A DNA stretch of 64,000 nt from positions 1 through 64,000 of the forward strand of contig JAUNCL010000008.1 of the NCBI GenBank assembly GCA_030535235.1, in the 5' to 3' direction. Each line of letters opens with the position of its first letter. Positions within the stretch are counted from its first letter, which is position 1. A program made the position numbers and the translations under genes. This document shows positions 34,929-59,275 of the stretch, piece by piece. A model generated the notes under the pieces. The model was not told the DNA's origin and made no database searches. It saw only the letters and a program-made list of their open reading frames with translations. This DNA comes from Bacillota bacterium. Its GTDB lineage: Bacteria; Bacillota; Clostridia; Oscillospirales; Oscillospiraceae.

Positions 34929-35686
34929 GCATCCTGGACTTTGACCGGGTCTCCTATCAGTATCCCGGGGAGGACTTTGACATCATCGATCAGCTCTCCT
35001 TCTCCGTGGAGCCCGGGTCCTTCCACTGCATGCTGGGGGTCAGCGGCTGCGGAAAGAGCACCATCTTCCGCATGACCAACGGCCTGCTCCAGCCCAAGGC
35101 CGGCACCATCCGGGTGGGCGGCAGGCCCATCGGGGAACAGAAGCACTACTGTGGCTACATGCCCCAGAAGGACCTGCTCTTCCCCTGGCGAACCATTGGG
35201 GAAAACCTGGCCCTGCCTATGGAGATCCAAGGCGGTTTCTCCAAGCAGGAACAGCGGGAGCGGGTGGACGCCGCTCTGACCGACGTTGGGCTGGCAGGCT
35301 GCCGGGACAAGCGACCCACGGAACTCTCCGGCGGTATGCGTCAGCGGGCGGCTTTCGCCCGCACCATGCTCACGGGAAGCGACCTTCTCCTCCTGGACGA
35401 GCCCTTCTCCGCCCTGGACTTTCTGACCCGCATCACCATGCAGGAGTGGCTGCTGGACCAGTGGCAGCGACACCGAAAGACCATCCTCTTCATCACCCAC
35501 GATGTGGAGGAGGCCCTGTTTCTCTCCTCCAGCGTGCTGGTGGTGGAGTCCACCCCCATCCGGGCTCTGCGGGAGGTTCCGGTCCCCCTGGACTACCCCC
35601 GCAGCCGCCACGACCTGACCCGTCCCGAGATCGTGGACCTGCGGGAAGGTCTGGTTGAGCTGCTGAGAAAGCAGGTGAAGGAATGA
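34925..35686 (+). CDS. thiZ: Pyrimidine-precursor ABC transporter, ATPase (ThiZ-like)
   Basis: A 253-residue ATPase of the nitrate/sulfonate/taurine class. Walker A is GVSGCGKST, signature LSGGMRQRAAFARTM, Walker B LLLLDEPFSALD and H-loop ITHDVEEALF. It starts within the tenA stop and overlaps the permease start, both by four bases. With ThiX and ThiY it should import formylaminopyrimidine or a related HMP precursor. Confidence 0.92.
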   Translation: MSILDFDRVSYQYPGEDFDIIDQLSFSVEPGSFHCMLGVSGCGKSTIFRMTNGLLQPKAGTIRVGGRPIGEQKHYCGYMPQKDLLFPWRTIGENLALPMEIQGGFSKQEQRERVDAALTDVGLAGCRDKRPTELSGGMRQRAAFARTMLTGSDLLLLDEPFSALDFLTRITMQEWLLDQWQRHRKTILFITHDVEEALFLSSSVLVVESTPIRALREVPVPLDYPRSRHDLTRPEIVDLREGLVELLRKQVKE

Positions 35687-36438
35687 AAAAAGCCAACCGA
35701 AGCAATCTTCCGGCGCTGATCTTCCTCTTCATCCTGCTGATGCTGTGGCAGCTGGGGGCCATGAAGGTGAACGCCGCCTATATTCTGCCCACCCCAATTC
35801 AGATCCTGCAAAAGCTCTGGGATCTGCGGGAGGTTCTCTTTACCGTTCACCTGCCGGCCACCATGCTGGTGACCCTGGTGGGTCTTGCCATCTCCCTGGT
35901 GCTGGGTCTGGGTTTGGCTGTGCTCATGGATGCCAGCCCCTTCTGGCAGAAAGCCCTGTACCCGGTGGTGGTGGCCTCCCAGACCATCCCCACCACTGCC
36001 ATCGCCCCGCTTTTCGTGCTCTGGTTTGGGTACGGGATCTGGAGCAAGGTCCTGGTGACCGTCCTCATCACCTTCTTCCCCATCACCATCACGGTGTATG
36101 ACGGCCTCCAATCGGCCCGGGTGGAGATGGCCGAGCTGCTGATAACCTACGGCGCCACCAAGCGGGACATCTTTTTCAAGATCAAGGTCCCCTGCACCCT
36201 GCCCTACTTCTTCTCCGCCATCAAAATGGCCATCCCCATGAGCATCATCGGCGCCGCCATCGGCGAGTGGCTGGGCGCCCAGAGCGGTCTGGGCTACTTC
36301 TCCCGCCGGATGATGACCCAGTTGGACGGCGCCGGGGTCTTCGCCCCCATCGTTCTGCTGTCTGTGGTTGCCATGCTGGCGGTTGCCCTGATCTCCCTGC
36401 TGGAAAAGCGTGTGGTGCGCTGGCGGGGTGAATTTTAA
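35683..36438 (+). CDS. thiX: Pyrimidine-precursor ABC transporter, permease (ThiX-like)
   Basis: A 251-residue permease with six predicted membrane helices. The cytoplasmic EAA-type loop ELLITYGATKRDIFFKIKVPCTLPYFFSAIKMA contacts the ATPase. IGAAIGEWLGAQSGLGYF is typical of the SsuC/TauC/ThiX branch. Tightly coupled to thiZ; thiY follows after 26 bp. Confidence 0.92.
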   Translation: MKKANRSNLPALIFLFILLMLWQLGAMKVNAAYILPTPIQILQKLWDLREVLFTVHLPATMLVTLVGLAISLVLGLGLAVLMDASPFWQKALYPVVVASQTIPTTAIAPLFVLWFGYGIWSKVLVTVLITFFPITITVYDGLQSARVEMAELLITYGATKRDIFFKIKVPCTLPYFFSAIKMAIPMSIIGAAIGEWLGAQSGLGYFSRRMMTQLDGAGVFAPIVLLSVVAMLAVALISLLEKRVVRWRGEF

Positions 36439-36464
36439 CTCTGAAAAAAGGAAAGGTTTTTGTT

Positions 36465-37472
36465 ATGAAACGTTTACTCTCTCTCATCCTGGCCCTGTCC
36501 CTCCTGCTGCTGTGCGGTTGCGGCGCTGCCGGAACCAACGAAAGTGAAGATACCGCAGAAGACCTGAAGGAACTGGATGTGGTTCTGGACTGGTACCCCA
36601 ATGCCCTCCACGCCTTCTTATATGTTGCCATCGACAAGGGCTACTATGAAGAGGAGGGCCTGAAAGTCAACATCCGCTTCCCCTCCAACGCCAACGACGC
36701 CATCTCCCTGGTGGCCGCCGGTCAGGCGGACATCGGCCTGTACTATCAGCAGGATGTCATCCAGGCCCGTGCCGAGCAAAACGTGCCGGTGAAGTCCATC
36801 GGCGCCGTGGTTCAGGCCCCTCTGAACATCGTCCTCTCTCTGCAGGAGAAGAACATCACCAAGCCGGAGGATCTGGTGGGCAAGACCATCGGCTACGCCG
36901 GCACCGAGCTCTCCGAGGCCCTGATCCGCAGCATCATGGAGTATGCTGGGGCTGACTACAGCGATGTGACCATGGTGGATGTGGGCTTTGACCTGATGAG
37001 CTCTATGACCACCGGCAACGTAGATGCCACCATCGGCTGTCTGGTGAACCACGAGGTCCCCCAGATGGAAGAGGAGGGCTTTGCCGTCAACTGGTTCGAT
37101 CTGGACGACTACGGCGTTCCCACCTACTATGAGGGCATCTTCCTGGCCAACGACGAAATGATCGCCAACGACAGCGACACTCTGGCCGCCTTCCTGCGGG
37201 CCTCCGCCCGGGGCTTTGCGGACATGAAAGCCGACCCCGAGGCCGCTCTGGCCACCCTCCTGGCGAATCAGAACGAGGAGAACTTCCCCCTGTCCGAGAC
37301 CGTGGAGCGCAAGAGCATGGAGACTCTGCTGCCCCTGATGGAGACCGCCGAGGCCGCCTTCCTGTCTCAGTCTGACGCCTGCTGGCAGGAGAACATCGAC
37401 TGGATGCTGGCCCAGGGTCTGATCGAGACCACCGTTTCTCTGGATGACGTCCGTGTGAATCTGGAATTCTGA
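36465..37472 (+). CDS. thiY: Pyrimidine-precursor-binding lipoprotein (ThiY/NMT1-like)
   Basis: A 335-residue solute-binding lipoprotein. The signal peptide ends LLLLCGC with the second Cys as probable lipid anchor. The NMT1/THI5 domain begins DVVLDWYPNALHAFLYVAIDKGYYEEEGL, close to ThiY and THI5 starts, followed by FPSNANDAISLVAAGQADIGLYYQQD, AVVQAPLNIVLSLQ and GKTIGYAGTELSE. It delivers the pyrimidine to ThiXZ outside the membrane. Last gene of the operon, before a terminator. Confidence 0.92.
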   Translation: MKRLLSLILALSLLLLCGCGAAGTNESEDTAEDLKELDVVLDWYPNALHAFLYVAIDKGYYEEEGLKVNIRFPSNANDAISLVAAGQADIGLYYQQDVIQARAEQNVPVKSIGAVVQAPLNIVLSLQEKNITKPEDLVGKTIGYAGTELSEALIRSIMEYAGADYSDVTMVDVGFDLMSSMTTGNVDATIGCLVNHEVPQMEEEGFAVNWFDLDDYGVPTYYEGIFLANDEMIANDSDTLAAFLRASARGFADMKADPEAALATLLANQNEENFPLSETVERKSMETLLPLMETAEAAFLSQSDACWQENIDWMLAQGLIETTVSLDDVRVNLEF

Positions 37473-39294: not shown

Positions 39295-41391
39295 ATGTTG
39301 ACCATACCGGAATATTTTGGGAGCCTGGTGTTTGACGACCGCATCATGAAGGCCCGGCTCTCCAGTCAGGTATACCGTTCTCTAAAGCAGACCATGGAAC
39401 GGGGGACCAAGTTGGACCTGTCCGTGGCTGACGCCGTGGCCGCCGCCATGCGGGACTGGGCTGTCGAGAACGGAGCCACCCATTTCACCCACTGGTTCCA
39501 GCCCCTCACCGGTATCACCGCGGAGAAGCACGACAGCTTCATCTCTCCCGCCCCCGACGGCCGGGTCATTCTGGAGTTCTCCGGCAAGGAGCTCATCAAG
39601 GGAGAGCCCGACGCCTCCTCCTTCCCCTCCGGCGGCCTGCGGGCCACCTTCGAGGCCAGAGGCTACACCGCCTGGGACCCCACCAGCTACGCCTTTATCA
39701 AGGGCAAGACCCTCTGCATCCCCACGGCTTTCTGCGCCTACGGCGGGGAGGCCCTGGACAAAAAGACCCCTCTGCTCCGCTCCATGGAGGCCCTGAACAA
39801 GCAGGCTCTGCGAATCCTGCGGCTCTTCGGCAGCACCGAGGTGAAGCGGGTCACCTCCATGGTGGGACCCGAGCAGGAATACTTCCTGGTGGATCAGGCC
39901 ATGTACAACGCCAGAAAGGACCTGGTCTACACCGGCCGGACCCTCTTCGGCGCCAAACCTCCCAAGGGTCAGGAGCTGGACGACCACTACTTCGGCTCCA
40001 TCAAGCCCCGGGTGGCCGCCTACATGGAGGATCTGAACGACGAGCTGTGGAAGCTGGGTATCCTGGCCAAGACCGAGCACAACGAGGTGGCCCCCGCCCA
40101 GCACGAGCTGGCCCCCATCTACACCACCGCCAACATCGCCGCTGACCACGACCAGCTGACCATGGAGATCATGCAGAAGGTAGCCGCCAGACACGGCCTG
40201 GTCTGTCTGCTCCACGAAAAGCCCTTCGCCGGCGTCAATGGCTCCGGCAAGCACAACAACTGGTCCATCGCCACCGACACCGGCATGAACCTCCTCTCCC
40301 CCGGTGAGACTCCCTATGAGAACGCCCAGTTCCTCCTCTTCCTGGTGGCCGTCATCAAGGCGGTGGACGAGTATCAGGGCCTCCTCCGCATGGCCGTGGC
40401 CACCGCCGGCAACGACCACCGTCTGGGGGCCAACGAGGCCCCGCCCGCTGTGATCTCCATCTTCCTGGGGGACGAGCTCACCGCCGTGCTGGAGGCCATT
40501 GAGAACGATGCCCCCTACGCCGGCATGGAGAAGAAGAAGATGCGGCTGGGGGTCAACGCCCTGCCCCGCTTCATCCGGGACACCACCGACCGGAACCGGA
40601 CCTCCCCCTTTGCCTTCACCGGCAACAAGTTTGAGTTCCGTATGCTGGGCTCCAGCAACTCCATCGCCTGCGCCAACATGATGCTCAACACCGCCGTGGC
40701 AGAGGTCCTCCGCCAGTTCGCCGATGCCCTGGAGGCCTCCACGAACTTCGATGACACCCTCCACGAGCTTCTCAAGAGCACCGTCATCGCCCACAAGCGC
40801 ATCATCTTCAACGGCAACGGCTACGACGACACCTGGATCAGGGAGGCCGTGGAGGAGCGGGGTCTTCTGAACCGGCCCACCACCCCCGACGCCATGGGGG
40901 CCGTGCTGGAGAAGAAGAACCAGGATATGCTCATCGCCCACCAGGTCTTCTCCAAGGCCGAGCTACTCTCCCGCTATGAGATCCAGATGGAGAACTACTG
41001 CAAGACCGTCCGCATCGAGGGTCTGACCATGGTGGACATGGTCAGAAAGGAGATCTTGCCCGCCGTAGAGGCCTATCTGGCCGACATCGGCTCCGCCGCC
41101 GCCGCCAAGCAGGCAGTGAGCCCCGAGCTTCCCTGTACTTACGAAAAGAAGCTGCTCAAGAAACTGGACCTGCTGGTCAACCTGATGGATGAGAGAACGG
41201 AAGCCCTGGAGCAGGCCATGGTGAACCTGGAGACCCTGGGGGACATCACCCAGGAGGCCTACGCCATCCGGGATGTGGTCCTGCCCAGGATGCGGGAGCT
41301 GCGGGCCGCCGCCGACGAGGCCGAGACCTGCACCGCCAGAAAATACTGGCCCTTCCCCACCTATGGCGACCTGCTCTTTGGGGTGAGATAA
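39295..41391 (+). CDS. glnN: Type III glutamine synthetase
   Basis: A 698-residue GSIII, the large dodecameric glutamine synthetase of Bacteroidetes, cyanobacteria and some Firmicutes, making glutamine from glutamate, ammonia and ATP. Recognised blocks are [35 protein letters not shown], the metal-site [60 protein letters not shown] and [21 protein letters not shown]. Length is typical. It is the first gene of a unit with asnB (45-bp gap). The leader in front has a hexaloop hairpin competing with a terminator, pointing to control by the ANTAR protein encoded at 51694-52290. Confidence 0.97.
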
Positions 41392-41436: not shown

Positions 41437-43017
41437 ATGTGTTCTATTATGGGATATTGCTCTGACAGCGTGGAACCGGAGCGGTTCCAGGAGGGCTTTG
41501 CCCGCACCAAATCCAGAGGGCCGGATGACAGCCGGGTCCTCTCTACAGGAAAGGGACTGCTGGGCTTCCACCGCCTGTCCATCATGGGCCTGCACCCCGA
41601 GGGGATGCAGCCCTTCACCCTGGACGGCAGTTATCTGGTCTGCAACGGGGAGATCTATGGATTTCAGCCCATCAAGCAGGAGCTTCAGGAAAAGGGCTAC
41701 GTCTTCCAGAGTGACTCGGACTGCGAGGTCCTCCTCCCCCTCTATCGGGAATACGGGGTGGACATGTTCGCCATGCTGGACGCGGAGTTCGCCTGCATCC
41801 TCTATGACGGGGAGCAGGAGACCTTTGTAGCCGCCCGGGACCCCATCGGGATCCGCCCCCTGTACTACGGCTACGACGAGAACTGCTCCATCGTCTTTGC
41901 CAGCGAGGCCAAAAACCTGGTGGGGTTGGTGGAGCACATCATGCCCTTCCCCCCGGGGCACTACTACAAAAACGGTCGGTTCATCTGTTACCATGACATC
42001 ACCGCCGTGAAGCAGGTGTCCCGGGATGACCTGGAGACCGCCTGCACCAAGATCCGGGAAAAGCTCACCGCCGGCATCCGGAAGCGCCTGGTGGCCGACG
42101 CCAAGGTGGGCTTCCTCCTCAGCGGCGGTCTGGACTCCTCCCTGGTCTGCTCTGTGGCCCAGCGGTACTCCGACGCCCCTATCCGTACCTTTGCCATTGG
42201 CATGAGCGAGGATGCCATCGACCTGAAGTACGCCAAGGAGGTGGCCGAGTACATCGGCAGCGACCACACCGAGGTCATCATCTCCAAGGAGGACGTCCTG
42301 GACGCCCTGGACACCGTGGTCCATCTGCTGGGGACCTTCGACATCACCACCATCCGTGCCAGCATCGGTATGTATCTGGTCTGCAAGGCTATCCATCAGA
42401 ACACCGACATCCGGGTCCTGCTCACCGGCGAGATTTCCGATGAGCTCTTCGGCTACAAATATACCGACTTTGCCCCCTCGGCAGAGGAATTCCAAAAGGA
42501 GGCCGTTAAGCGCTTGCGGGAGCTCCACATATACGACGTCCTCCGGGCAGACCGCTGCATCTCCGTCAACTCCCTGGAGGCCAGAGTGCCCTTTGGGGAC
42601 CTGGATTTCGTGGAGTACGTCATGTCCATCGACCCCGAGCTGAAAATGAACAAATACAACAAGGGCAAGTACCTCCTCCGCCACGCCTTCGAGGGGGACT
42701 ACCTGCCGGAGCGCATCCTGTACCGGGAAAAGGCCGCCTTCTCTGACGCGGTGGGCCACTCCATGGTGGACTACCTGAAGGAGTACGCCGAGAGCCGCTA
42801 CACCGACGAGGAGTTCCAGCAGAACCGGCTGGCCTACACCCACGCCCAGCCCTTCACCAAGGAGTCCCTTCTCTACCGGGAGATCTTTGAGCAGTATTAT
42901 CCCGGTCAGGGGGAGATGATCGTGGATTTCTGGATGCCCAACAAAGCCTGGGAAGGCTGCAATGTAGACGACCCCAGCGCCCGCGTTCTCTCCAACTACG
43001 GCCAGAGCGGCCTTTAA
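41437..43017 (+). CDS. asnB: Glutamine-hydrolysing asparagine synthetase
   Basis: A 526-residue class-II amidotransferase that makes asparagine from aspartate, ATP and glutamine. Cys2 (MCSIMGYC) is the nucleophile of the N-terminal glutaminase domain, which also has FHRLSIMGL, CNGEIYGF and SDSDCEVLL. The synthetase domain has the PP-loop LLSGGLDSSLVCSVA near residue 230, then HTEVIISKEDVLDALDTVV and LTGEISDELFGYKYTDFAP. A terminator follows at 43086-43121. Placement behind glnN puts both glutamine supply and use under one leader. Confidence 0.96.
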   Translation: MCSIMGYCSDSVEPERFQEGFARTKSRGPDDSRVLSTGKGLLGFHRLSIMGLHPEGMQPFTLDGSYLVCNGEIYGFQPIKQELQEKGYVFQSDSDCEVLLPLYREYGVDMFAMLDAEFACILYDGEQETFVAARDPIGIRPLYYGYDENCSIVFASEAKNLVGLVEHIMPFPPGHYYKNGRFICYHDITAVKQVSRDDLETACTKIREKLTAGIRKRLVADAKVGFLLSGGLDSSLVCSVAQRYSDAPIRTFAIGMSEDAIDLKYAKEVAEYIGSDHTEVIISKEDVLDALDTVVHLLGTFDITTIRASIGMYLVCKAIHQNTDIRVLLTGEISDELFGYKYTDFAPSAEEFQKEAVKRLRELHIYDVLRADRCISVNSLEARVPFGDLDFVEYVMSIDPELKMNKYNKGKYLLRHAFEGDYLPERILYREKAAFSDAVGHSMVDYLKEYAESRYTDEEFQQNRLAYTHAQPFTKESLLYREIFEQYYPGQGEMIVDFWMPNKAWEGCNVDDPSARVLSNYGQSGL

Positions 43018-43132: not shown

Positions 43133-43161
43133 TTGACATCTCTCCCATTCCGCCGTATAGT
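43133..43161 (+). promoter_or_regulatory. Promoter of the fusion-protein operon
   Basis: -35 TTGACA (43133-43138), 17-bp spacer, -10 TATAGT (43156-43161), the same -10 word as the glnN promoter. Confidence 0.78.
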
Positions 43162-43171
43162 AAATATTGTA

Positions 43172-43227
43172 TTGAGACAAAGATGTCCCGGAAACTGTTT
43201 CTGCGGCGTCCTTGTCTCAGTTTTTAT
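43172..43227 (+). promoter_or_regulatory. ANTAR-type leader of the fusion-protein operon
   Basis: A terminator with arms near TTGAGACAA (43172-43180) and TTGTCTCAG (43212-43220) and a T-rich tail encloses about 30 bases. Its 5' arm can instead form a hairpin with loop AAAGAT (43179-43184; A at 1, G at 4) on stem GAC/GTC, extended by a G-C pair past one mismatch. A rival tetraloop fold GACA-AAGA-TGTC is also possible. The layout matches the glnN and glnA leaders. Confidence 0.5.
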
Positions 43228-43263
43228 TTTCATTAGAATTTATTTCTCCGGAGGTGGCAACCC

Positions 43264-46200
43264 ATGACAGATCCCATGGCAGCAAAGGACGCATTCAACC
43301 AGGCCCTGCTCCAGCTCTCCCAGGCTGCCCCGGCCGTCGGCGGCCTGCTCATCCAGGAGGCAGAGGCCCTGATGGCCCTATCCGCCCACGACAGCCGGGT
43401 TTGCCGACAGACCCTGGCCCTCTGCCAGCCAGCCATGGCGGCCCTGGGGGCCCAGGTGGACGACCGGTGGCTGGCGGCCCTGTATGACCAACTCACAGCC
43501 AACCTCTTCCCCGATGAGACCACCGGCCATGTGCGGCGCCCCCTGGACCCCGCCGAGACTCTGTATCTGGCCGTTCTGGAGCTGGTCCTCTCCCAGCCCG
43601 TTTCGGTCTCTGACTCTCTGCTGGACCTGCTTCCCCTCCCCGAGGATTCCATTCCCGGCAGCCGTGTGGAGCTCCAGTACCGGCGTTTCCGAAAACTGTT
43701 TGGAGAAAACCATGTGGTGACCCTCATGCGGCTGGGCCGGGAGATCATGCCCTTCGATCCGGCCTCCCACACCATCGGCGTCCACAACGTGGCCCTCCAC
43801 ACCGCCAAGATGGCCAAACTGGCGGGTATTCCCGTGGACCTGCCCCTGGTGAGCGCCGCCGCCCTGGGCCATGACGTGGGAAAATTCGGCTGCCGGGGGG
43901 AGGACGCCCAGCGGATCCCCTACCTCCACTACTACTACACCTGGCAGTGGTTCAGCGAGCACGACATGGAGGACATCGGCTACATCTCCGCCAACCACTC
44001 CACCTGGGACCTGGAATTTGAGAACCTGCCCATGGAATCCCTCCTTCTCATCTATGCGGACTTCCGGGTTCGGGGATCCAGGGAGAACGGAAAGGAGACC
44101 ATGGCCATCTACAGCCTGGCCGAGGCCTATGACATGATCTTCTCCAAGCTCTATAACATGACCGAAGAAAAGCAGCTCCGGTACCGGACGGTCTACGCCA
44201 AGCTGCGGGATTTCGAGACCTATCTGACCTCCCACGGGGTCCCGGTGGACCTGGATCGGGAACAACTGGAGGAGGTGCAGTCCACCGACCCCGCCCTCCT
44301 CTCTCCCGACCAGGCCCTCCAGGGTCTGCGGAACATGACCCTGGAAAACTCCATCCGGCTCATGAACATGGTCAGCACCGATGAGTCCTTTGAACAGCTT
44401 CTGGAACAGGCCAAGGGAGAAAAGAACCTCCAGCGCATCCGCACCTACCTTCACCTTCTGGAGGAGTACAGCACCTACATGACCAAGGCCAACAAGCAGA
44501 AGGCCCTGACCCTCCTCTACGAACTGCTCATGCACCCCGACGGGGACGTCCGCCGGAAGGCAGGCAGCCTCATGGGGCAGATCCTGGCCAACAGCGGCCC
44601 CAAGTATCGGAAGGAGCGGCCAGGAGGTGCCCGGAAGGAGGCCATCACCCCCACCATGATGGCCCTGTTGGACGAGTCCGTGAGCCTGTGGGAAAAATAC
44701 ATCCACCTGTGCCTCCGGCCCCAGCAGAGAGTCTCCCCCAGCCATGCCCTTCGAATTTCAAACTCCCTGAAAACCATCTGTCACAGTCTTTTCGCCCATT
44801 GTGACGGAAAGGAGGCCCAACCCCTGCTGGAGCCCCTTCTCCACCTGATCTGGGAGACCGATGACCCCCGGGAGCAGTTCATCCTGATCGACGCCCTGGG
44901 CAAGATCCCCTGGGCCTGTCTCCCCAAAGACGCCGAGGCCCCCACCATCCAGGCCCTGGGACGGATGCTCCACAGCCAGGAGGTGAGGCTCCAGATCGCC
45001 GCGCTGCTCCGCCTGGAGGAGCTCTGCCGTCAGCGGCCTGGGCTGATCCCCCAGATCCGCCCCCAGGCAGAGAGTTTTGTACCCTGGGATGGAGAGCACC
45101 GGTTGGTGCTGACCACCCTGCGCTGCCGGGTTCTGGGGCTGCCCGCACCCTCCCTCAGCTCAGAGGAGGCCTCTGAGATCTACCTGAGCAACCTGAAGGC
45201 TGCCGTCCACTGGATGGTGAAGCTGGTCCAGATCGACCTGCTCTGCGCCCGGGTGGATACCTGTCCCGACAGCATCTTTCACACCGCCATGCACCTGTCC
45301 AACCTTCTCTCGGTCAGCGAACACCTGCCCGTCCGGGAGTACGCCGGTCAGTGCCTGATCCGTCTGGCTCCCCGGCTGGCGGCGGAGCAGATCAACGAGA
45401 TCGCCATCGACCTGCTTCGGGAACTGGAGAGCGGGCAGGAGCAGATCTCCCAGTTCATCCCCCCCTACGCCGGCCCCATTCTCTGCCTGCTGCCGGAAAA
45501 GGAGCTGCGGGAGGCCATCGTGATCCTGGAAAATCTCGTGCGGCGCGCTTCCGGCCGGGCGGCCCGGGCAGCCCTGTATACCCTGGGAGAGATACTAAAT
45601 GTATGGACCGGAGACGAAGATATGGTCCACCGGGTCCTGGGGATCCTCATGTCGGGGGTCAGCCACTATGAGGAGGACATTCACCAGACCGCTCTGGCCG
45701 TCCTCTGCCGGGAGGTCTTCGGCAGCCGCCGCCTCTCCCCGGAACGGAAGAATCGCTGCTTCACCTTCCTGCATAAAAAGCTGCTGACCATCCTGTCGGA
45801 GCCCCGGGAGGGCCGGCTGACCTTCTTCAACCGGGCCGCCATGCTCAACCACCTCTACCGGTTCCTGGTCCAGTATGAGGTCACCCGGGGGCCCTTCGTC
45901 TTCCCAGCCAGAAAGCCCGCCGCCTTTTTCCCCGGCACCTTCGACCCCTTCTCCGTGGGCCACAAGCGCATCGTGGAGGAGATTCGGTCCCTGGGATACG
46001 AGGTCTACTTGGCGGTGGACGAGTTCTCCTGGAGCAAGCAGACCCTGGCCAAGCTCCTGCGGCGGCAGATCGTCAGCATGTCCGTGGCCGACCAATGGGA
46101 CACCTATCTCTTCCCCGACGATATCCCCATCAATATCGCCATGCCCCGGGATCTGGCCCGCCTGCGGTCCTTCTTTCCGGACCAGGACCTCTGTCTGGTG

Positions 46201-47964
46201 GCGGGCAGCGATGTGATCCGCCACGCCTCGGCCTACCGCAGCACCCTTCCCTGCTCCGCTCCCGACTTCGACCACATCATCTTCTGCCGGGACCGGGAGG
46301 AGGGTCCCCCCATGGAGGAGATCATCCGGGGCAAGGTCCGGCTGATCTCCCTGCCCGCCTTCTTTGACACGGTGAGCTCCACCCGGATCCGGGAGTATGT
46401 GGACCAGAACCTGGACATCTCCATGCTGGTAGACCCTGCCGTCCAGTCACTGATCTACCAGTACAGCCTGTACCTCCGCTCCCCGGAGCGAAAGGACATC
46501 CTCCGGCGGCAGGACCTCTTCTTCCGCACGTACCGAAGCCGGACGGGAGAACTCCCGGAAACCATGAACCGTCTGCTGACCCGGGGACGGGATGCTCTGG
46601 GGTCCGCCCTCTTCCTGCGGCCCTCCACCCTGTGGGGATGGACCGTGGGGCACACCCTCCACTCCGCCGACCTCTACGAGGTCATCGGCACCCTGGAGGG
46701 GGCCAGCTTCGTCCGGCAGAACACCTCCGGCCGCATCCTCTTTGTGGACCAGGTCTGCCTGGAGTGCCCCAAGGACCAGGAGCCAGCCGCCTGCCGGATG
46801 CTCCTGAACGAGCTGCTGGCCCGCAGTCTGGAGCGGGACCACACCTACGCCCTCTGCCGGTGCCAGGAGACCGAAGGCCCTCTGGCCTACGCCTTGGAGC
46901 AGCTGGGCTTTCTTCCCATTCCGGGGCAGGAGGATATCTTCTGCGTGGATATGCGCTCCCCCATGATGCTCCTCCAGGACGGCTTTCTCCACATCAAAAA
47001 GCCCTACCGGGACAGCGACCGGGTGAAGGCCGTCGTGGCCCGGATCCGCCCCCGCCTCCGCTCCACCCTGGCGGGCATGTTCCCCGGCAAGCTGGTGCTG
47101 TGCTTCGACTCCGAGATGCTCAACCAGGCCCTGATGGAGCGGGTAGAAACCCTCAACGGCGTCAAGGACGTTCCCCCCGGCCAGCGCCGGCTGGGGCCCT
47201 GCATGTGCGTCCCCTACGGCAAGATTCTGGCCGACGAGATCGTTCCCAACACTGTCACCAAGACCCTCCATGTAGAGAAGAGCTTTGACCCGGACATCCA
47301 CAGCTTCCAGGTCACTGAGTACCCCGGCTACTCCCCCCTGAAGAACCAGGTCCGCACACTCCTCTCCTTCCAGCGGCCGGTGATCCTGGTAGATGACCTG
47401 CTCCACAAGGGCCACCGCATGGAGAAGCTGGACCGCATCCTGAAGGAGGAGGGACTGGACATCCAAAAAATCATCGTGGCGGTCATGTCCGGCTACGGAC
47501 GGGATCTGATGCGCCTTCAGGGGCGGCAGGTGGACTGCGAGTATTTCATTCCCAACCTCCACTACTGGATGACCGAGAGCCTGCTCTACCCCTTTTTAGG
47601 GGGCGACAGCGTGGCCGGACGGCGGGTCACCGAGGGAATGCTCCCCTCCATCAACCTCATTCTTCCCTACATCTATCCCAACTTCCTGGCGGACGCCTCC
47701 GACGGCGCCATCCGCCAGCTCTCCCAGGTGGCCCTGGAAAACGCCTGCGCCCTGATGAAGGCCCTGGAGCAGGAGCACCAGCAGATCTGCAGCACCGCCT
47801 TATCCCTGCGGCGGCTGGGGGAGGTCCTCCAGCGGCCCCGTCTCCCTGACCGTGGAGGCTGCCTGGGCTATGACGTTTCCCTGCCCCCGTCGGCCTGCCT
47901 GGAGGATGATCTCATCCAGCTCCGGCGGCTCCATCGAAAGGAGGGTCACTATTATGAAGTATAG
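43264..47964 (+). CDS. Giant fusion: HD hydrolase, helical repeats, nucleotidyltransferase, GNAT-like and PRTase-like domains
   Basis: A 1,566-residue cytoplasmic protein without signal or membrane segments. In order: an HD phosphohydrolase domain (about 150-320) with His174, His203-Asp204 (GHDVGKFG) and Asp266 as metal ligands; a long helical HEAT-like region (about 370-870); a NadD/cytidylyltransferase-like domain with GTFDPFSVGH (891-900) and SSTRIR (1038-1043); a GNAT-like stretch (about 1155-1236); and a type-I phosphoribosyltransferase-like domain with the PRPP-loop-like VILVDDLLHKGHR (1373-1385). All key motifs look intact. The parts point to making and breaking nucleotides or NAD-like cofactors, but the reaction is unknown. 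It heads an operon with an LDH/MDH-like enzyme and a flavodoxin-like protein, behind an ANTAR-type leader among glutamine genes. GGAGGTG precedes the ATG. Confidence 0.8.
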   Translation: MTDPMAAKDAFNQALLQLSQAAPAVGGLLIQEAEALMALSAHDSRVCRQTLALCQPAMAALGAQVDDRWLAALYDQLTANLFPDETTGHVRRPLDPAETLYLAVLELVLSQPVSVSDSLLDLLPLPEDSIPGSRVELQYRRFRKLFGENHVVTLMRLGREIMPFDPASHTIGVHNVALHTAKMAKLAGIPVDLPLVSAAALGHDVGKFGCRGEDAQRIPYLHYYYTWQWFSEHDMEDIGYISANHSTWDLEFENLPMESLLLIYADFRVRGSRENGKETMAIYSLAEAYDMIFSKLYNMTEEKQLRYRTVYAKLRDFETYLTSHGVPVDLDREQLEEVQSTDPALLSPDQALQGLRNMTLENSIRLMNMVSTDESFEQLLEQAKGEKNLQRIRTYLHLLEEYSTYMTKANKQKALTLLYELLMHPDGDVRRKAGSLMGQILANSGPKYRKERPGGARKEAITPTMMALLDESVSLWEKYIHLCLRPQQRVSPSHALRISNSLKTICHSLFAHCDGKEAQPLLEPLLHLIWETDDPREQFILIDALGKIPWACLPKDAEAPTIQALGRMLHSQEVRLQIAALLRLEELCRQRPGLIPQIRPQAESFVPWDGEHRLVLTTLRCRVLGLPAPSLSSEEASEIYLSNLKAAVHWMVKLVQIDLLCARVDTCPDSIFHTAMHLSNLLSVSEHLPVREYAGQCLIRLAPRLAAEQINEIAIDLLRELESGQEQISQFIPPYAGPILCLLPEKELREAIVILENLVRRASGRAARAALYTLGEILNVWTGDEDMVHRVLGILMSGVSHYEEDIHQTALAVLCREVFGSRRLSPERKNRCFTFLHKKLLTILSEPREGRLTFFNRAAMLNHLYRFLVQYEVTRGPFVFPARKPAAFFPGTFDPFSVGHKRIVEEIRSLGYEVYLAVDEFSWSKQTLAKLLRRQIVSMSVADQWDTYLFPDDIPINIAMPRDLARLRSFFPDQDLCLVAGSDVIRHASAYRSTLPCSAPDFDHIIFCRDREEGPPMEEIIRGKVRLISLPAFFDTVSSTRIREYVDQNLDISMLVDPAVQSLIYQYSLYLRSPERKDILRRQDLFFRTYRSRTGELPETMNRLLTRGRDALGSALFLRPSTLWGWTVGHTLHSADLYEVIGTLEGASFVRQNTSGRILFVDQVCLECPKDQEPAACRMLLNELLARSLERDHTYALCRCQETEGPLAYALEQLGFLPIPGQEDIFCVDMRSPMMLLQDGFLHIKKPYRDSDRVKAVVARIRPRLRSTLAGMFPGKLVLCFDSEMLNQALMERVETLNGVKDVPPGQRRLGPCMCVPYGKILADEIVPNTVTKTLHVEKSFDPDIHSFQVTEYPGYSPLKNQVRTLLSFQRPVILVDDLLHKGHRMEKLDRILKEEGLDIQKIIVAVMSGYGRDLMRLQGRQVDCEYFIPNLHYWMTESLLYPFLGGDSVAGRRVTEGMLPSINLILPYIYPNFLADASDGAIRQLSQVALENACALMKALEQEHQQICSTALSLRRLGEVLQRPRLPDRGGCLGYDVSLPPSACLEDDLIQLRRLHRKEGHYYEV

Positions 47965-49195
47965 CGCCTGGCACGGCTTCTGCCTCTGCGGACAGGAGAG
48001 GCAATTCCCCCCGGAGGCCCGGCCGGTGGATGTCCCCTTCTCCCCTCTGGTCTTTCTGGTCACCCGGGACCCCAGAACCGCCCGGGGCTGGTTCACCATC
48101 TCCCACCCGGCGGAACTCTACGAGCCCGAAGGGCTGGCCGCTCTGACCCCCTGCGATGGTGAAATCCCCCGGGACTTCCCCCGGGAGCTGGTGGGTCTGG
48201 TGGAGGCCCACGGCGCATGCGTGCTGAACACCGCCTTCGCCCGGGCCTTCCCCTGGCTCCTCCACCAGAAAACAGTCCGCCGGGAGGGCTTCAAGATCAC
48301 CCTGGTGGGCCTGGGGGATGTGGGCGGCACCGTCCTCACCGGATTAAAGCTTCTGGGCCGGGAGTTGAGGGAGATCGCCATCTTCGATCCCAACGCCGCC
48401 CTGTGTGCCCGGTATGAGATGGAGCTGAACCAGATCCTCCCGGAGACCGCCGGCGGCACAACGCCCCGGGTCACCATCTGTCCGGAAGCCGACCTCTTTC
48501 ACTGCGACCTGCTGGCCTTCACCGCCTCCCGGGGCGTGCCCGGTCTGGACAGCGGCGTGCAGGATGTCCGCATGGCCCAATTTGAGGCCAACCGAGCCAT
48601 GATCGCCCCCTACGCCCGTCGGGCCAGGGAGGAGGGGTTCCTGGGCGTCTTTTGTCAGATCTCCGACCCGGTGGACAACCTGGCCCGGGAGGTCTTTCTC
48701 CAGAGCAACCAGACACAAACCGGCGACTATGACTTCGCTGGCCTGCTCCCCGAGCAGGTCCAGGGCTTCGGCCTGGGGGTCATGGCAGCCCGGGCGGCCT
48801 ATTATGCGGAAAAGGAAGGGGTGGACTTTTCCCAGGGCGGAGCCTACGGCCCCCACGGCCAGGGACTGGTCATCGCCAACCACAAGGGGAACGGGTACGA
48901 CGAGGCCCTCTCCCAGCGGCTCACCCGCCTGACCCGGGAGGCCAACCTCCGGGTCAGGGACCTGGGCTTCAAGCCCTATATCGCCCCGGGGCTCTCCTCC
49001 GCGGCCGTCTCCCTCCTCCAGCTCCTCCGGGGAGAGGAACACTACGGCGCCGTCCCCCTGGGGGGCGTCTACTTCGGCTGCCGCAGCCGGTATACCCCCC
49101 AGGGCCTCGCCATCCAACGGGAACCCATCAACCAGGGTCTCATGGCCCGTTTGGCCCAGACCCACCGCGCATTGTGGGAGTTTGATACACCATGA
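47954..49195 (+). CDS. LDH/MDH-superfamily dehydrogenase with altered active site
   Basis: A 413-residue protein. After about 110 residues of its own N-terminal domain comes a lactate/malate dehydrogenase-like body. It has the NAD motif ITLVGLGDVGGTVLTGL, Asp ending strand 2 (IFDPNA), DVRMAQFEANRAMIAPYA (the R..N segment), QISDPVDNLARE (usual vsNPVD), FGLGVMAARAAYYAEKEGV (usual GTxLDxxR) and GAYGPHGQGLVIAN with the catalytic-type His. The Asp that normally partners this His (in LDxxR) is replaced by Met, so classic 2-hydroxyacid chemistry is doubtful. The start at 47954 overlaps the fusion-protein gene by 11 bases, and the end overlaps the next gene by four. It probably acts with both. Confidence 0.75.
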   Translation: MKYSAWHGFCLCGQERQFPPEARPVDVPFSPLVFLVTRDPRTARGWFTISHPAELYEPEGLAALTPCDGEIPRDFPRELVGLVEAHGACVLNTAFARAFPWLLHQKTVRREGFKITLVGLGDVGGTVLTGLKLLGRELREIAIFDPNAALCARYEMELNQILPETAGGTTPRVTICPEADLFHCDLLAFTASRGVPGLDSGVQDVRMAQFEANRAMIAPYARRAREEGFLGVFCQISDPVDNLAREVFLQSNQTQTGDYDFAGLLPEQVQGFGLGVMAARAAYYAEKEGVDFSQGGAYGPHGQGLVIANHKGNGYDEALSQRLTRLTREANLRVRDLGFKPYIAPGLSSAAVSLLQLLRGEEHYGAVPLGGVYFGCRSRYTPQGLAIQREPINQGLMARLAQTHRALWEFDTP

Positions 49196-50259
49196 AACAA
49201 CCGACTATTACCCTGGTGCAGGTGGGCAACACCCACCGGCTGGAACAGATTTTGCCCAAAGCCTTAAAGGGGGTCTCCGTCCAGTGGATCCCTCCTCAGC
49301 TCATCGGCGTGGAGGACCTGCGAAACCGTCGGCTCCTCTTTGCCGTGGGCATGGACGCCTTCGGGCCGGACCCCTCCTTCTATCTGCTGGTCCGCCGCCT
49401 GCGCCAGCACCCCAACTGTCTGGCCGGCTGCGCCGCCGGGCTGGTGGTGGACGGCTGCGGAGAGCTCTACACCAAGCAGGCCGCCCAGACCCTGGTCATG
49501 GCCGCCAATCTGGCCGGCTGCGCCTTCCCCGGTAAGCCCCTGGTGGAGGGGACCGGCTCCCTGTACAACCAGCACATCCTGGCCAATCAGCTGGGGATCA
49601 CCTGGGAGGAGACCTATTTCCTCCGGGTCCGGGAGCTGGCCCAGCGGGTGGCTGCCTTCACCCCGCCCCGCTTCGACCACCCCAGGCTCCTGATGATCCA
49701 CGCCTCGGACAACGCCCGGTCCAACACGGTCTGGCTGGGACGGCAGGTTCTGCAGCATCTGCCAAAGCGGTTCTCCTTCCAGGAGGTCTCCCTCCAGAAC
49801 GGGACCATCCAGGACTGCCGGGGCTGCTCCTACAGGGCCTGCCGCCACATGGCCCGGCAGAACACCTGCTTCTACAGCGGACCCCTGTCCCAGGAGATCA
49901 TCCCCGCCATCAACGCCTGCGACGTCATGCTCTTCCTCTGCCCCAACTACAACGACGCCGTCAGCGCCAACATCATGGCTCTGTTCAACCGACTGACCAA
50001 CCTGCTCCACCAGCACGAGCTGTATGAGAAATACCTCTTCGGCATCGTGGTCTCGGGCTACTCCGGCAGCGACCTGGTGGCCCAGCAGCTTCTGGGAGCC
50101 ATGTGCTTTAACAAAACCGCCCAGCTTCCCCCGCAGTTCTGCCTGATGGAGACTGCCCACGAGTCCGGCTCCGCCCAGAAAAAGGCAGGCATCCAGGAGG
50201 ATATCCTCCGGTTCGCCTCCCACATCGAGTCCGCCGTTCTTCGGCGGACCTCCGCGTGA
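49192..50259 (+). CDS. Flavodoxin-fold NAD(P)H-dependent reductase-like protein with N-terminal extension
   Basis: A 355-residue protein. Residues about 165-345 resemble NADPH-dependent FMN reductases: LLMIHASDNARSNTVWLGRQVL (FMN phosphate loop), CRGCSYRACRHMARQNTC (a cysteine-rich stretch), INACDVMLFLCPNYNDAVSANIMALFNRL (substrate/FMN-binding PxY-like loop), and FGIVVSGYSGSDLVAQQLLG. Residues 1-160 form a separate alpha/beta domain (LLFAVGMDAFGPDPSFYLLVRRL) not recognised. It begins inside the dehydrogenase stop codon. It likely supplies or takes electrons for its operon partners. Reaction unknown. Confidence 0.75.
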   Translation: MKQPTITLVQVGNTHRLEQILPKALKGVSVQWIPPQLIGVEDLRNRRLLFAVGMDAFGPDPSFYLLVRRLRQHPNCLAGCAAGLVVDGCGELYTKQAAQTLVMAANLAGCAFPGKPLVEGTGSLYNQHILANQLGITWEETYFLRVRELAQRVAAFTPPRFDHPRLLMIHASDNARSNTVWLGRQVLQHLPKRFSFQEVSLQNGTIQDCRGCSYRACRHMARQNTCFYSGPLSQEIIPAINACDVMLFLCPNYNDAVSANIMALFNRLTNLLHQHELYEKYLFGIVVSGYSGSDLVAQQLLGAMCFNKTAQLPPQFCLMETAHESGSAQKKAGIQEDILRFASHIESAVLRRTSA

Positions 50260-50367: not shown

Positions 50368-50432
50368 AACGAGGATGTTCGGAGAGGGAAGCTGTGCGCT
50401 TTTTTACGGAACCATCCTCGTTATTCTTTTTG
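50368..50432 (+). promoter_or_regulatory. ANTAR-type leader of glnA
   Basis: Terminator arms AACGAGGATG (50368-50377) and CATCCTCGTT (50413-50422) are followed by ATTCTTTTT. The 5' arm alternatively forms GAAC-GAGGAT-GTTC (50367-50380), a hairpin with a six-base loop having G at position 4 but G rather than A at position 1. A second small hairpin (AAGC/GCTT) lies inside. It is the third leader of this design in 11 kb. Confidence 0.5.
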
Positions 50433-50461
50433 AAACAAGGGAAAGGACGGTGGGTTTGACC

Positions 50462-51676
50462 ATGAAGTTCACCCCAGAGGAAGTCATACAGTATGTGGAG
50501 GAGGACGACATCAAGTTCATCCGCCTGGCCTTCTGCGATATTTACGGCCAGCAAAAGAACGTCGCCATTATGCCCACCGAGCTCAGGCGGGCCTTCCGGA
50601 GCGGCATTGCCATCGACGCCTCGGCCATTGCCGGGTTTGGCGGCGAGGTCCGGTCCGACCTGTTCCTGCGCCCGGACCCCTCCACCCTGGTCCAACTCCC
50701 CTGGCGGCCGGAGAGCGGGAAGGTGGTCCGCATGTTCTGCGACATCACCCATCCCGATGGGACCCCACTGGCGTCCGATCCCCGGGGGATTCTGAAGAAC
50801 GCCATCCACGCCGCCGCTGCGGAGGGGATCACCTTTGACTTCGGCGCGGAGATGGAGTTCTATCTGTTCAAGACCGATGAAAACGGCGAACCCACCCAGC
50901 AGCCCTACGACAAGGCCGGCTACATGGACATCGCCCCCGACGACAAGGGGGAAAATGTGCGCCGGGAGATCTGCCTGACCCTGGAGGCCCTGGGCATCCA
51001 GCCGGAGAGCTCCCACCACGAGGAGGGCCCCGGCCAGAATGAGATCGACTTTCGCTATTCCGACGCCCTCTCCTCCGCCGACAACGCCATCACCTTCCGC
51101 TCGGTGGTCAAGACCGTGGCCCTTCGGAACGGCCTGGCAGCGGACTTCTCCCCCAAACCCCTCCGGGACCAGGCTGGCAGCGGACTGCACATCAACATCT
51201 CGGTGAACGACGCCGACGGGCGGGATCTCCTGCCCCACGTTATCGCCGGCATGATGGCCCATATCCACGACATGACGCTCTTTCTGAACCCCTGTGAGAA
51301 CTCCTACGAGCGTCTGGGCCGGAACAAAGCCCCCGGCTACATCACCTGGTCCAGAGAGAACCGCTCTCAGCTCATCCGCATCCCGGCGGCGGACAAGGAC
51401 CATCCCCGGGCGGAGCTGCGCTCGGCCGACCCCTCCGCCAACCCCTATCTGGCCTTCGCCCTGCTCATCCACGCCGCTCTGGACGGCATCAAGCAAGAGC
51501 TGACGCCGCCCCCCAGCACCGACGTCAACCTCTACGCAACCCCTGCCCACAAGCTGGCCACCTACCAGAAGCTTCCCTCCTCCCTGCAGGAGGCCAGATT
51601 CCTCGCCAAAGAGAGTTCCTTCCTTCGCGCCCATCTGCCGAACCCTGTGATCTCTGCCTATTGTGACCAGCCCTGA
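50462..51676 (+). CDS. glnA: Type I glutamine synthetase (short form)
   Basis: A 404-residue GSI-family enzyme, shorter than the usual 440-470. The N-terminal beta-grasp (VIQYVEEDDIKFIRLAFCDIYGQQKN) and the catalytic barrel are present: GAEMEFYLF, EEGPGQNEIDFRYSDAL, GSGLHINISV, NSYERLGRNKAPGYITWSRENRS and AELRSADPSANPYLAFALLIHA. The residue that Gram-negative enzymes adenylylate is not evident. It could be the main glutamine synthetase or a glutamylamide ligase of the same fold; the operon with the ANTAR regulator and pyrG favours nitrogen assimilation. The start is ambiguous: ATG 50462, or TTG two codons earlier. Confidence 0.9.
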   Translation: MKFTPEEVIQYVEEDDIKFIRLAFCDIYGQQKNVAIMPTELRRAFRSGIAIDASAIAGFGGEVRSDLFLRPDPSTLVQLPWRPESGKVVRMFCDITHPDGTPLASDPRGILKNAIHAAAAEGITFDFGAEMEFYLFKTDENGEPTQQPYDKAGYMDIAPDDKGENVRREICLTLEALGIQPESSHHEEGPGQNEIDFRYSDALSSADNAITFRSVVKTVALRNGLAADFSPKPLRDQAGSGLHINISVNDADGRDLLPHVIAGMMAHIHDMTLFLNPCENSYERLGRNKAPGYITWSRENRSQLIRIPAADKDHPRAELRSADPSANPYLAFALLIHAALDGIKQELTPPPSTDVNLYATPAHKLATYQKLPSSLQEARFLAKESSFLRAHLPNPVISAYCDQP

Positions 51677-51693: not shown

Positions 51694-52290
51694 ATGGTTT
51701 TTCAGGAGCGAACCTATCGTGTCCTCATCGTCTCTTCCTCAGAAAAATTCAATACCTCCGTCCGTCAGCTCCTCCCCACGGCGGAATACTGGCCCATCAC
51801 CACCGCACGAAGCGTCGCTGAGGCCAAGCGCTGCCTGCTGGAACAGCCCTGCGACATCATCCTCATCAACGCCCCCCTGCCCGATGACTTCGGCATGCGT
51901 CTGGCCATCGACATCTGCAACAGCAGCAACGCCGGCGTGCTTCTGCTGGTCAAAAGCGAGGTGTACAGCGGGATCTATGCCAAGGTCGTGGGCTACGGCG
52001 TCATGACCCTCTCCAAGCCCACCTCGGTGCAGATGATCGCCCAGTCCCTGCGGGTCCTCTGCGCCACCCGGGAACGGCTGCGGAAGGTGGAGGAGCGGCA
52101 GGCCTCTCTGGAGGAGCGCATGGAAGAGATCCGCCTGGTGAACCGGGCAAAGTGGATGCTCATCCAGTGCCTGGGCATGACCGAGGCCGAGGCCCACCGA
52201 TACATCGAAAAACAGGCCATGGACCGTCGTATTTCCAAACGAAAGGTCGCGGAAAGCGTGCTGGAAACCTACCAGTCCCAGACCCCGTGA
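51694..52290 (+). CDS. ANTAR-domain antiterminator with degenerate receiver
   Basis: A 198-residue two-domain protein. The C-terminal ANTAR RNA-binding domain (about 132-190) is clear: [48 protein letters not shown]. The N-terminal receiver-like domain has lost phosphorylation: the acidic pair is replaced by Ser ([10 protein letters not shown]) and the acceptor Asp by Asn ([13 protein letters not shown]), while the Lys-Pro remains (LSKPTS). A coiled coil joins the parts. It should bind hexaloop hairpins in nascent leaders and prevent termination, controlled by something other than phosphorylation, perhaps protein or metabolite binding. It sits 17 bp behind glnA and 20 bp before pyrG. Confidence 0.93.
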
Positions 52291-55755: not shown

Positions 55756-56271
55756 TCAGAGAATGTCGATCTGACACATGGTCATGGCTGACAGGGCGTT
55801 GTCGTGGCTCTCCGGCGTGACCCCGGCGCAGCAGGACTTCCAGACCCCGATGGGAGTCTCCCACAGCCGGGACTTCAGACACAGCGCGTTGGAAATGACG
55901 CAGATATCCGTGCAGAGACCCACCAGTTCAATGGAGTCATACCCGCCGGCGGCCGCGAAGTCGCAGAGCGCCCCGGAGCCAAAGGTGGGCTTGTTAATGA
56001 CGGCGGCGGTCTTTCCCTCCCCGGCGGCATACACCTCGGGATGGATCTGCCAGCCCTCGCTTCCCCGGATGCAGTGGGGGACCGGCAGCTTCCTCCCCTC
56101 TGCGGTGTCCAGGTAGTTCTCCTGGTGGGTATCCCGGGTGTAGACCACATCGCCGTTAAATTCCGTGATTTTCTCAATCACAGCCGGGACAATGGCCTCC
56201 GCCTCCCTGGTGCCCAAGGCGCCATGGATGAAGTCCACCTGCATGTCAATGACAACCAACAGCTTCTTCAC
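55756..56271 (-). CDS. Isochorismatase-family cysteine hydrolase (nicotinamidase-like)
   Basis: A 171-residue alpha/beta hydrolase with the Asp-Lys-Cys triad of the family: Asp in VVIDMQVDFIHG, Lys in NKPTFGSGAL and Cys in LVGLCTDICVISNAL. The metal-binding Asp-x-His of nicotinamidases appears as TRDTHQENY. Nicotinamide deamidation for NAD recycling is the likeliest role, though substrate range in this family is wide. Translation from GTG (56271) is supported by GGGAG seven bases upstream and by a consensus promoter (TTTACA-17-TATAAT, minus strand, 56308-56336) just before it. Confidence 0.82.
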   Translation of the reverse strand: MKKLLVVIDMQVDFIHGALGTREAEAIVPAVIEKITEFNGDVVYTRDTHQENYLDTAEGRKLPVPHCIRGSEGWQIHPEVYAAGEGKTAAVINKPTFGSGALCDFAAAGGYDSIELVGLCTDICVISNALCLKSRLWETPIGVWKSCCAGVTPESHDNALSAMTMCQIDIL

Positions 56272-59121: not shown

Positions 59122-59167
59122 CCCCTTCCGGGCCACCTCTCTGGTGAACCCCGGAAGGGGTTTTCTT
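59122..59167 (+). terminator. Terminator of the RsmH-like gene
   Basis: 11-bp arms CCCCTTCCGGG (59122-59132) and CCCGGAAGGGG (59150-59160), then TTTTCTT. Confidence 0.8.
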
Positions 59168-59189
59168 ATGGGAAGTAGCCGGTGTCCTC

Positions 59190-59218: not shown

Positions 59219-59275
59219 AACTTACAGGCAAATTCGTCCATCCTTCGACTTTATTTCACAGAGAGGACACCTGCT

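Follow-up and report, generated by a model that had tools for sequence, protein, structure and literature searches.

In a 64,000-nucleotide stretch of a Bacillota genome (assembly GCA_030535235.1, contig JAUNCL010000008.1, positions 1 to 64,000; the whole stretch is called the window below), three consecutive genes, which we name P1, P2 and P3, constitute a real, co-inherited three-gene system that is scattered across Bacillota. P1 encodes a 1566-residue multidomain protein, P2 a relative of lactate and malate dehydrogenases (LDH and MDH) and P3 a flavoprotein; their positions are given in Table 1. The first two reading frames overlap by 11 nucleotides and the last two by 4, as the starts of P2 (47954) and P3 (49192) lie inside the ends of P1 and P2, respectively. 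An original prediction, made from the letters alone, had given these three open reading frames with their lengths and overlaps and three motif strings in P1, and all of them are present in the sequence (GTFDPFSVGH at residues 891-900, SSTRIR at 1038-1043 and VILVDDLLHKG at 1373-1383). What is observed is the order of the genes, their co-occurrence, the homologies and the invariant sites. Judged by sequence comparison, the system is new as a whole, with parts that fall into known superfamilies and with P3 as a member of the FMN_red family. We propose tentatively, at somewhat less than an even chance, that P1 both forms and breaks an adenine dinucleotide, in the way that NadD and YqeK act on nicotinamide adenine dinucleotide (NAD), and that P2 and P3 are its redox partners in an obligate system.

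The three genes occur together. When 394 genomes of the order, the window's own included, were searched at cut-offs of E ≤ 1e-10 for P1, E ≤ 1e-6 for P2 and E ≤ 1e-20 for P3, all three genes were found in the same 10 genomes, and neither P1 (10 of 394) nor P3 (10 of 394) was found outside them. P2 matched 11 genomes, the eleventh match being weak (G254, E 2.3e-7) and its open reading frame carrying ordinary lactate dehydrogenase motifs. In a phylum-level sample P1 matched 9 of 398 genomes, again counting the window's own, one of them (G459) with a nucleotidyltransferase fragment only; in two further families it was present in 5 of 20 and 8 of 13 genomes, with 3 and 2 of these, respectively, known from the phylum sample. 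Within the window's genus it was found in 3 of 16 genomes, some of the 16 being incomplete. The P1 of a same-genus genome (G012; L002) and that of locus L020 match the window's P1 identically, at 67.248% over residues 25-1566, which makes Candidatus Evtepia faecigallinarum a probable member of the window's genus. Since 31 P1 sequences, the window's own included, align end to end at identities down to 33%, the sequences argue that P1, P2 and P3 are genes far beyond chance.

The arrangement of the genes was compared at 44 P1 loci, window included, which are not independent (several come from one genus) and differ in length. At 33 of them P1, P2 and P3 are adjacent in the same order and direction, with a gap of ~0.6 kb at L046, and at L012 the order is kept around an extra open reading frame of 286 amino acids (12594-13454) between P1 and P2. 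The co-occurrence that the original prediction had asked to be surveyed was therefore found, both in the same 10 of 394 genomes and in the same order and direction at 34 of 44 loci. Two loci (L016 and L044) run from P1 to P2 and then to the contig end, and four (L018, L021, L022 and L079) are cut too early to show the partners. At L013 P3 lies ~6 kb upstream, and at three loci of one genus (L050, L080 and L081) neither P2 nor P3 is in the stretch fetched; the genomes of these three encode P2 on another contig (the search covered P2). Pairwise identities correlate across loci, with r of 0.91 for P1-P2, 0.84 for P1-P3 and 0.77 for P2-P3, values that stand without a housekeeping control. Three genes that are retained or discarded as a unit would mark a complete, undescribed biochemical function.

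A mobile-element origin was considered and rejected: two peptide patterns, run against viral contigs, picked up two short nucleotidyltransferase fragments on one contig, and the single PLSDB match (91% of P1) lies in NZ_CP154629.1 (L139), a 2.63-Mb record of Acetoanaerobium noterae. This record is labelled plasmid pTPELB2, looks like a chromosome and holds all three genes. Among PADLOC families, none of anti-phage defence matched P1, P2 or P3 at E ≤ 0.01. At L016 (8001-12528) tblastn splits P1 into two pieces (query 46-1245 and 1262-1560), which may stem from a frameshift or an assembly error.

The HD domain of P1 carries all seven YqeK active-site residues, each in all 31 aligned sequences: H169, H203, D204, K207, H222, H245 and D266. 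By residue comparison their counterparts in the Streptococcus pyogenes YqeK are His29, His58, Asp59, Lys62, His91, His117 and Asp135. According to excerpts of PMC11857287, that enzyme forms a two-metal site from His29, His58, Asp59 and Asp135 together with Asp59, His91 and His117, and Lys62 is also needed; a review, likewise in excerpt, describes such a dinuclear site as unusual among HD phosphatases (PMC8177086). The original prediction had named part of this site. Its His203-Asp204 pair and Asp266 are invariant, the first histidine is His169 (31/31) and not the proposed His174 (26/31), and Lys207, His222 and His245 have to be added. Pfam HD was matched by 21 of the 31 members at E ≤ 0.1 (best 2.8e-5), P1 itself being below the cut-off, and in the alignment with the YqeK profile the His-Asp pair coincides, as do the first His before it and the His and Asp regions after it. 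Residue identity is the strongest evidence for a predicted YqeK-type HD site.

The predicted nucleotidyltransferase of P1 matches CTP_transf_like (PF01467) in all 31 sequences at E ≤ 0.1 (best 2.3e-10), and P1 itself exceeds the domain cut-offs of PF01467 (24.7 versus 21 bits) and TIGR00125 (29 versus 27.7 bits). When the family profile was compared with PDB chains, NadD (5llt) came top with the whole domain aligned (E 1.1e-9), and human NMNAT aligned with the second half of the domain (E 4.9e-7). The catalytic positions H900, G981, D983, R1009, S1038, S1039, I1042 and R1043 are invariant in the 31 sequences and T1040 is found in 29, so that the SSTxIR motif of the NadD/NMNAT type is present in the C-terminal stretch. 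Tyr991 (30 Tyr, 1 Phe) aligns without gaps opposite a Trp of the genome's own NadD, a residue that we take to stack on the nicotinate ring.

Between and behind these two sites lie three further parts. In the helical repeats, 10 of the 31 members match Pfam HEAT at E ≤ 0.1 (best 1.4e-4), P1 itself being below the cut-off. Residues 1079-1250 matched 16 GNAT domains with an hhalign probability of 83% (E 8.5e-6; hhalign E-values here and below are those of single comparisons), against 6% for YqeK and 0.8% for phosphoribosyltransferases as controls, and Pfam Acetyltransf_1 was found in 1 of 31 members. The acetyl-CoA (acetyl-coenzyme A) loop, whose pattern in GNATs we assume to be R/Q-x-x-G-x-G/A, is missing in P1 at the aligned place, where the 31-sequence consensus has no majority Gly, and the GNAT-like part is therefore not to be counted as an acetyltransferase. 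Residues 1245-1480 matched 11 HPRT-type phosphoribosyltransferase domains with a probability of 84.5% (E 6.9e-6), a local match of 33 columns around the loop for phosphoribosyl pyrophosphate (PRPP), versus 0.3% for YqeK and 0.2% for GNAT. As in type I phosphoribosyltransferases there is an Asp-Asp loop, with each Asp in 30 of 31 sequences and the Gly in 28. In these enzymes the PRPP loop presumably reads D-D-x4-T/S-G-x-T, whereas in P1 the T/S-G-x-T phosphate loop is replaced by x-G-x-R (Arg1385 in 30/31). Thus the earlier statement that the motifs are intact stands for the nucleotidyltransferase and HD sites and goes too far for the phosphoribosyltransferase-like part, and neither a working acetyltransferase nor a standard phosphoribosyltransferase is borne out in P1.

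P2 had been described as LDH/MDH-like, and it is indeed a relative of lactate dehydrogenases by profile comparison with PDB (E 1.7e-7), with an altered core. Ldh_1_N matches 19 of 26 members; at E 0.01 P2 is not among them. We take the LDH/MDH catalytic set to comprise the His195-Asp168 pair, Asn140, Arg109 and Arg171. By this numbering P2 keeps the Rossmann domain and the equivalents of Arg109, Arg171 and His195 (R206, R280 and H301; 26/26), whereas the equivalent of Asn140 is Asp238 and that of Asp168 is Met277 (both 26/26), and ~105 extra residues stand at the N-terminus. In P3, FMN_red (PF03358) spans residues 165-319 (54.8 versus 24 bits) and matches all 28 members, and four cysteines, C209, C212, C217 and C226, are invariant in the 28 sequences with the spacing C-x2-C-x4-C-x8-C. 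The FMN_red domain, as in iron-sulfur flavoproteins and NADPH-dependent (reduced NAD phosphate) flavin mononucleotide (FMN) reductases, and the four invariant cysteines suggest that P3 is an iron-sulfur flavoprotein. The cysteine spacing differs from what we take to be the iron-sulfur flavoprotein motif, and the first 160 residues have no Pfam match. That this N-terminal half could be a repeat of the C-terminal half was considered and dropped (probability 0.4%).

The known system closest in design is the NadD-YqeK pair or fusion (TIGR00482 plus TIGR00488; PRK07152), which likewise has both types of site in one chain and the same seven HD residues. In P1 the order is reversed, the sites are separated by ~550 residues that include the helical repeats, GNAT-like and phosphoribosyltransferase-like parts are added, and there are two obligate partners. 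P1 is distinct from the housekeeping enzyme, since the genome also encodes a 402-amino-acid NadD-YqeK fusion on another contig (C34; L094, 1459-2667). In the NadD part of that fusion, EIASRDLRR stands in place of the expected SSTxIR. Over its full length P1 was matched by no single model of Pfam, NCBIfam or PADLOC, and no description of the architecture or the system was found in titles and abstracts of the CC-licensed (Creative Commons) literature, a scope that leaves most subscription journals outside. The system is taken as new because P1 fails a defining feature of each of NadD, YqeK, phosphoribosyltransferases and GNATs, and P2 one of LDH/MDH.

The proposed mechanism is modelled on NadD-YqeK, with which P1 shares both kinds of site; from this analogy we infer the reactions, the kind of acceptor and product, and what P2 and P3 contribute. 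The nucleotidyltransferase would transfer adenosine monophosphate from adenosine triphosphate to an aromatic-base mononucleotide, and the dinuclear HD site would hydrolyse the pyrophosphate link in this product or in incorrect ones. Binding or preparation of the acceptor nucleotide may fall to the phosphoribosyltransferase-like and GNAT-like parts, and the helical repeats may serve to keep the parts together. P2, as a dehydrogenase, and P3, as a probable iron-sulfur flavoprotein, would make, reduce or use an adenine-dinucleotide cofactor. Dinucleotide-forming and dinucleotide-cleaving sites in P1, beside an ordinary NadD-YqeK fusion, suggest a second, optional dinucleotide metabolism, and the system may lead to a redox cofactor not yet known, to a repair route or to an alarmone. 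A more specific version, which we hold to be unlikely, is a redox cofactor of the adenine-dinucleotide type other than NAD: the phosphoribosyltransferase-like part would supply the ribotide of a base other than nicotinamide, the nucleotidyltransferase would adenylylate it, the HD site would remove faulty dinucleotides, and P2 and P3 would be dedicated redox enzymes.

Several results weigh against a dinucleotide-making and dinucleotide-cleaving P1 with two redox partners. The HD profile matched 16 same-order YqeK domains at a modest probability of 41% (E 2.8e-4; phosphoribosyltransferase control 0.2%) and the genome's single NadD-YqeK chain at a weak 1.7%. The TIGR00488 YqeK model, which matches 23 of 25 relatives, gave no match to P1 at E ≤ 1, and no PDB match of the HD domain was significant (best E 0.086, three of the four chains listed being HD proteins). 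The phosphoribosyltransferase-like part reached 5.4% against a second alignment of two phosphoribosyltransferase sequences and had no significant PDB match, the best two being chains of that fold (E 0.24 and 0.86); PF00156 was found in 1 of 31 members, with P1 below the gathering cut-off (15.9 versus 26.3 bits). P2 is without the catalytic Asp of LDH, the P3 profile finds no chain in the PDB at E 0.01, and P2 was not found in G835 (L079), a P1 genome that is 79% complete. As for the nucleotidyltransferase, P1 widely misses the TIGR00482 NadD equivalog cut-off (29.6 versus 112.45 bits), the first His of HxGH (position 897) is Ser in 22 and Thr in 9 of the 31 sequences, and on P1 the CoaD model comes close to that of NadD (E 1.4e-6 versus 6.3e-7). 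For these three reasons the domain is best described, on sequence grounds, as NadD/NMNAT-like and not as NadD.

The replaced histidine gives a string, PGTFDPF[S/T]xxH, that resembles what we take to be the CoaD signature, so a CoaD-like chemistry is conceivable, in which the nucleotidyltransferase would act on a phosphopantetheine-like acceptor in a pathway of the coenzyme A type. Many CoaD chains also appear in the PDB search; however, they align only with the first part of the domain, whereas NadD covers the whole, and the SSTxIR motif and C-terminal stretch are of the NadD/NMNAT type, which makes such a pathway very unlikely. The altered phosphoribosyltransferase loop and the absent GNAT loop would also fit a largely non-catalytic scaffold, in which most P1 domains bind ligands and P2 and P3 are the working enzymes, but all 31 aligned sequences keep the active-site residues of the HD domain and the nucleotidyltransferase, which renders this highly improbable. 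Damage control, in which P1 would edit or rebuild damaged or wrong NAD-type dinucleotides and P2 and P3 would reduce or oxidise them back without any new cofactor, has a precedent in the fusion of JCVI-Syn3A, where excerpts of PMC9426524 describe a NadD part that makes wrong dinucleotides and a YqeK part that cleaves them, a proofreading role, and the redox-type folds of P2 and P3 are in keeping with it. Such a role is nonetheless unlikely in our judgment: the genome already has its NadD-YqeK fusion, and the patchy distribution within the genus would be unusual for general repair.

One chain with a site for synthesis and another for cleavage would also suit a signalling system, in which the nucleotidyltransferase makes and the HD site degrades a dinucleotide alarmone of the nitrogen or energy state, with P2 and P3 as effectors or sensors. 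YqeK cleaves diadenosine tetraphosphate according to excerpts of two sources (PMC8177086 and PMC11857287), and the nitrogen-related genes near some loci and the leader design common to P1 and the glutamine synthetases in the window (both described below) point the same way. Against this, no known effector or receptor domain was found in Pfam at E ≤ 1, most loci have no such gene nearby, and two obligate partners of the dehydrogenase and flavoprotein kinds fit metabolism better; we consider signalling distinctly unlikely. P1 also shares with GlnD the combination of a nucleotidyltransferase and an HD domain in one nitrogen-linked protein, a likeness of design only. One could imagine a switch that reversibly modifies a nitrogen enzyme, such as glutamate dehydrogenase or glutamine synthetase, bound by the helical repeats, given the glutamate dehydrogenase genes beside four loci and the two glutamine synthetases in the window. 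This is extremely unlikely: GlnD and GlnE presumably use a nucleotidyltransferase of a different superfamily, the pol-beta type, the family of the P1 domain is assumed to act on small molecules, no ACT domain, a GlnD feature, is among the P1 Pfam matches at E ≤ 1, and P2 and P3 would be left unexplained.

The link to nitrogen that the original prediction had drawn for the system holds in part. At least one nitrogen-related gene or pyrG lies near the system at 9 of the 44 loci, window included, but 35 have none of the genes looked for. Glutamate dehydrogenase is within 0.5 kb of the system at four loci, directly upstream in the same direction at L013 and L041, divergent and in two copies at L047 and convergent at L048; the family was confirmed by Pfam for L041, L047 and L048 and rests on 52% identity for L013. 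The two copies at L047 (3624-6308) are different glutamate dehydrogenase genes in tandem beside P1. If one to three copies per 2.3-Mb genome are assumed, 0.19-0.56 glutamate dehydrogenase genes would be expected near P1, and the chance of at least four such loci is roughly 5e-5 to 3e-3. In the same 44 loci asnB was found at 3 (plus 1 weak), type III glutamine synthetase at 2 and pyrG at 3. A background of 83 loci (262 kb), which is not taxon-matched, gave 0 hits, the number that a set of this small size would be expected to give. In the window, the placement of the operon between two glutamine synthetase units was confirmed by family models (type III at 39295 and type I-like at 50375). The type I-like enzyme, below the GlnA equivalog cut-off (336.9 versus 429.15 bits), is a divergent form adjoining the ANTAR gene. 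A fixed glnA/ANTAR neighbourhood, as the original prediction had suggested checking, was rejected: among the 44 loci of very different length an ANTAR gene is near P1 in the window only, and 35 are without the genes looked for. The proposed link to a nicotinamidase-like gene (55756-56271) was also abandoned, for this gene has no homolog (E ≤ 1e-4) in the other 43 loci, several of them short.

In the window glnA3, P1 and glnA are each preceded by a sigma-70-like promoter followed by a hairpin and a T-run. The promoter scan gave 5 in 13 kb, with 2.1 expected (standard deviation 1.3), and the leaders fold with z of −4.9 (glnA3), −5.7 (P1) and −2.0 (glnA); the hairpins come from folding, and a simple terminator scan of the window did not list them. 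A scan that picks up two of the three window leaders (P1 and glnA3, not glnA) found the combination of promoter and hairpin upstream of P1 at none of the 39 other loci. An earlier scan of 33 upstream stretches, which gave a single hairpin per locus, missed the window's own leader hairpin. At L020, the closest relative, the upstream region folds no better than shuffles (z 0.7). L005, L011, L017, L019 and L054 have a hairpin and T-run ~100-160 nucleotides upstream of the aligned P1 with no recognised promoter, which could be the terminator of the preceding gene or another leader. An ANTAR-controlled leader would carry a pair of A1/G4 hexaloop hairpins that overlap a terminator. Hexaloop hairpins with A1/G4 (stem of at least 4) occur between promoter and T-run once each in the glnA3 and P1 leaders and not in that of glnA, and 77 are found on the + strand of the 64 kb. 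An Rfam scan of the window gave a thiamin pyrophosphate (TPP) riboswitch only, with no match at the leaders. Since antitermination by ANTAR proteins governs nitrogen genes in many bacteria (excerpt of PMC3369931), shared control of the leaders by the ANTAR protein encoded from 51694 is plausible. Judged from context and leaders, the operon in this genome is probably expressed together with nitrogen assimilation.

Table 1. Positions in the window of the three genes, the predicted parts of P1 (res, residues) and the surrounding features.
Feature	Position	Strand	Basis
P1, 1566-aa multidomain protein (HD, helical repeats, NadD-like nucleotidyltransferase, GNAT-like, phosphoribosyltransferase-like; aa, amino acids)	43264..47964	+	open reading frame; 31-sequence alignment
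P2, 413-aa LDH/MDH-related dehydrogenase, altered catalytic core	47954..49195	+	profile vs PDB LDH, E 1.7e-7
P3, 355-aa FMN_red-type flavoprotein, C209 C212 C217 C226	49192..50259	+	FMN_red match, E 1e-14
Predicted HD domain, YqeK type, res 150-335	43711..44268	+	profile comparison; residues vs YqeK (excerpt of PMC11857287)
HEAT-like helical repeats, res 367-879	44362..45900	+	Pfam HEAT in 10/31 members
Predicted NadD/NMNAT-type nucleotidyltransferase, res 880-1078	45901..46497	+	CTP_transf_like 31/31; PDB NadD 5llt profile match
GNAT-like region, res 1079-1250, acetyl-CoA loop absent	46498..47013	+	hhalign vs GNAT alignment
Phosphoribosyltransferase-like region, res 1245-1480, VDDLLHKGHR loop	46996..47703	+	hhalign vs 11 HPRT-type domains
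Leader of P1: sigma-70-like promoter (43133-43161), then hairpin and T-run	43133..43263	+	promoter scan; fold z −5.7
Glutamine synthetase type III (glnA3), upstream context	39295..41391	+	GSIII_N, E 1e-79
Asparagine synthase B (asnB), upstream context	41437..43017	+	NF006949 over cut-off
Type I-like glutamine synthetase (glnA), similar leader, downstream context	50375..51676	+	Gln-synt_C, E 9.8e-91
ANTAR response regulator, downstream context	51694..52290	+	ANTAR, E 2.2e-17
CTP synthase (pyrG), downstream context	from 52314

Two further observations were made elsewhere in the window. The TPP riboswitch heads a thiamin-type gene run (29069-37472), in which the five genes scanned encode a ThiF-like protein, a BATS radical SAM protein, a phosphomethylpyrimidine kinase, an ABC transporter and an NMT1/THI5-like protein. 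At 59144-61636, FeoA and FeoB are fused in a single protein of 830 amino acids, with the FeoA domain at residues 45-116 and FeoB from residue 163.

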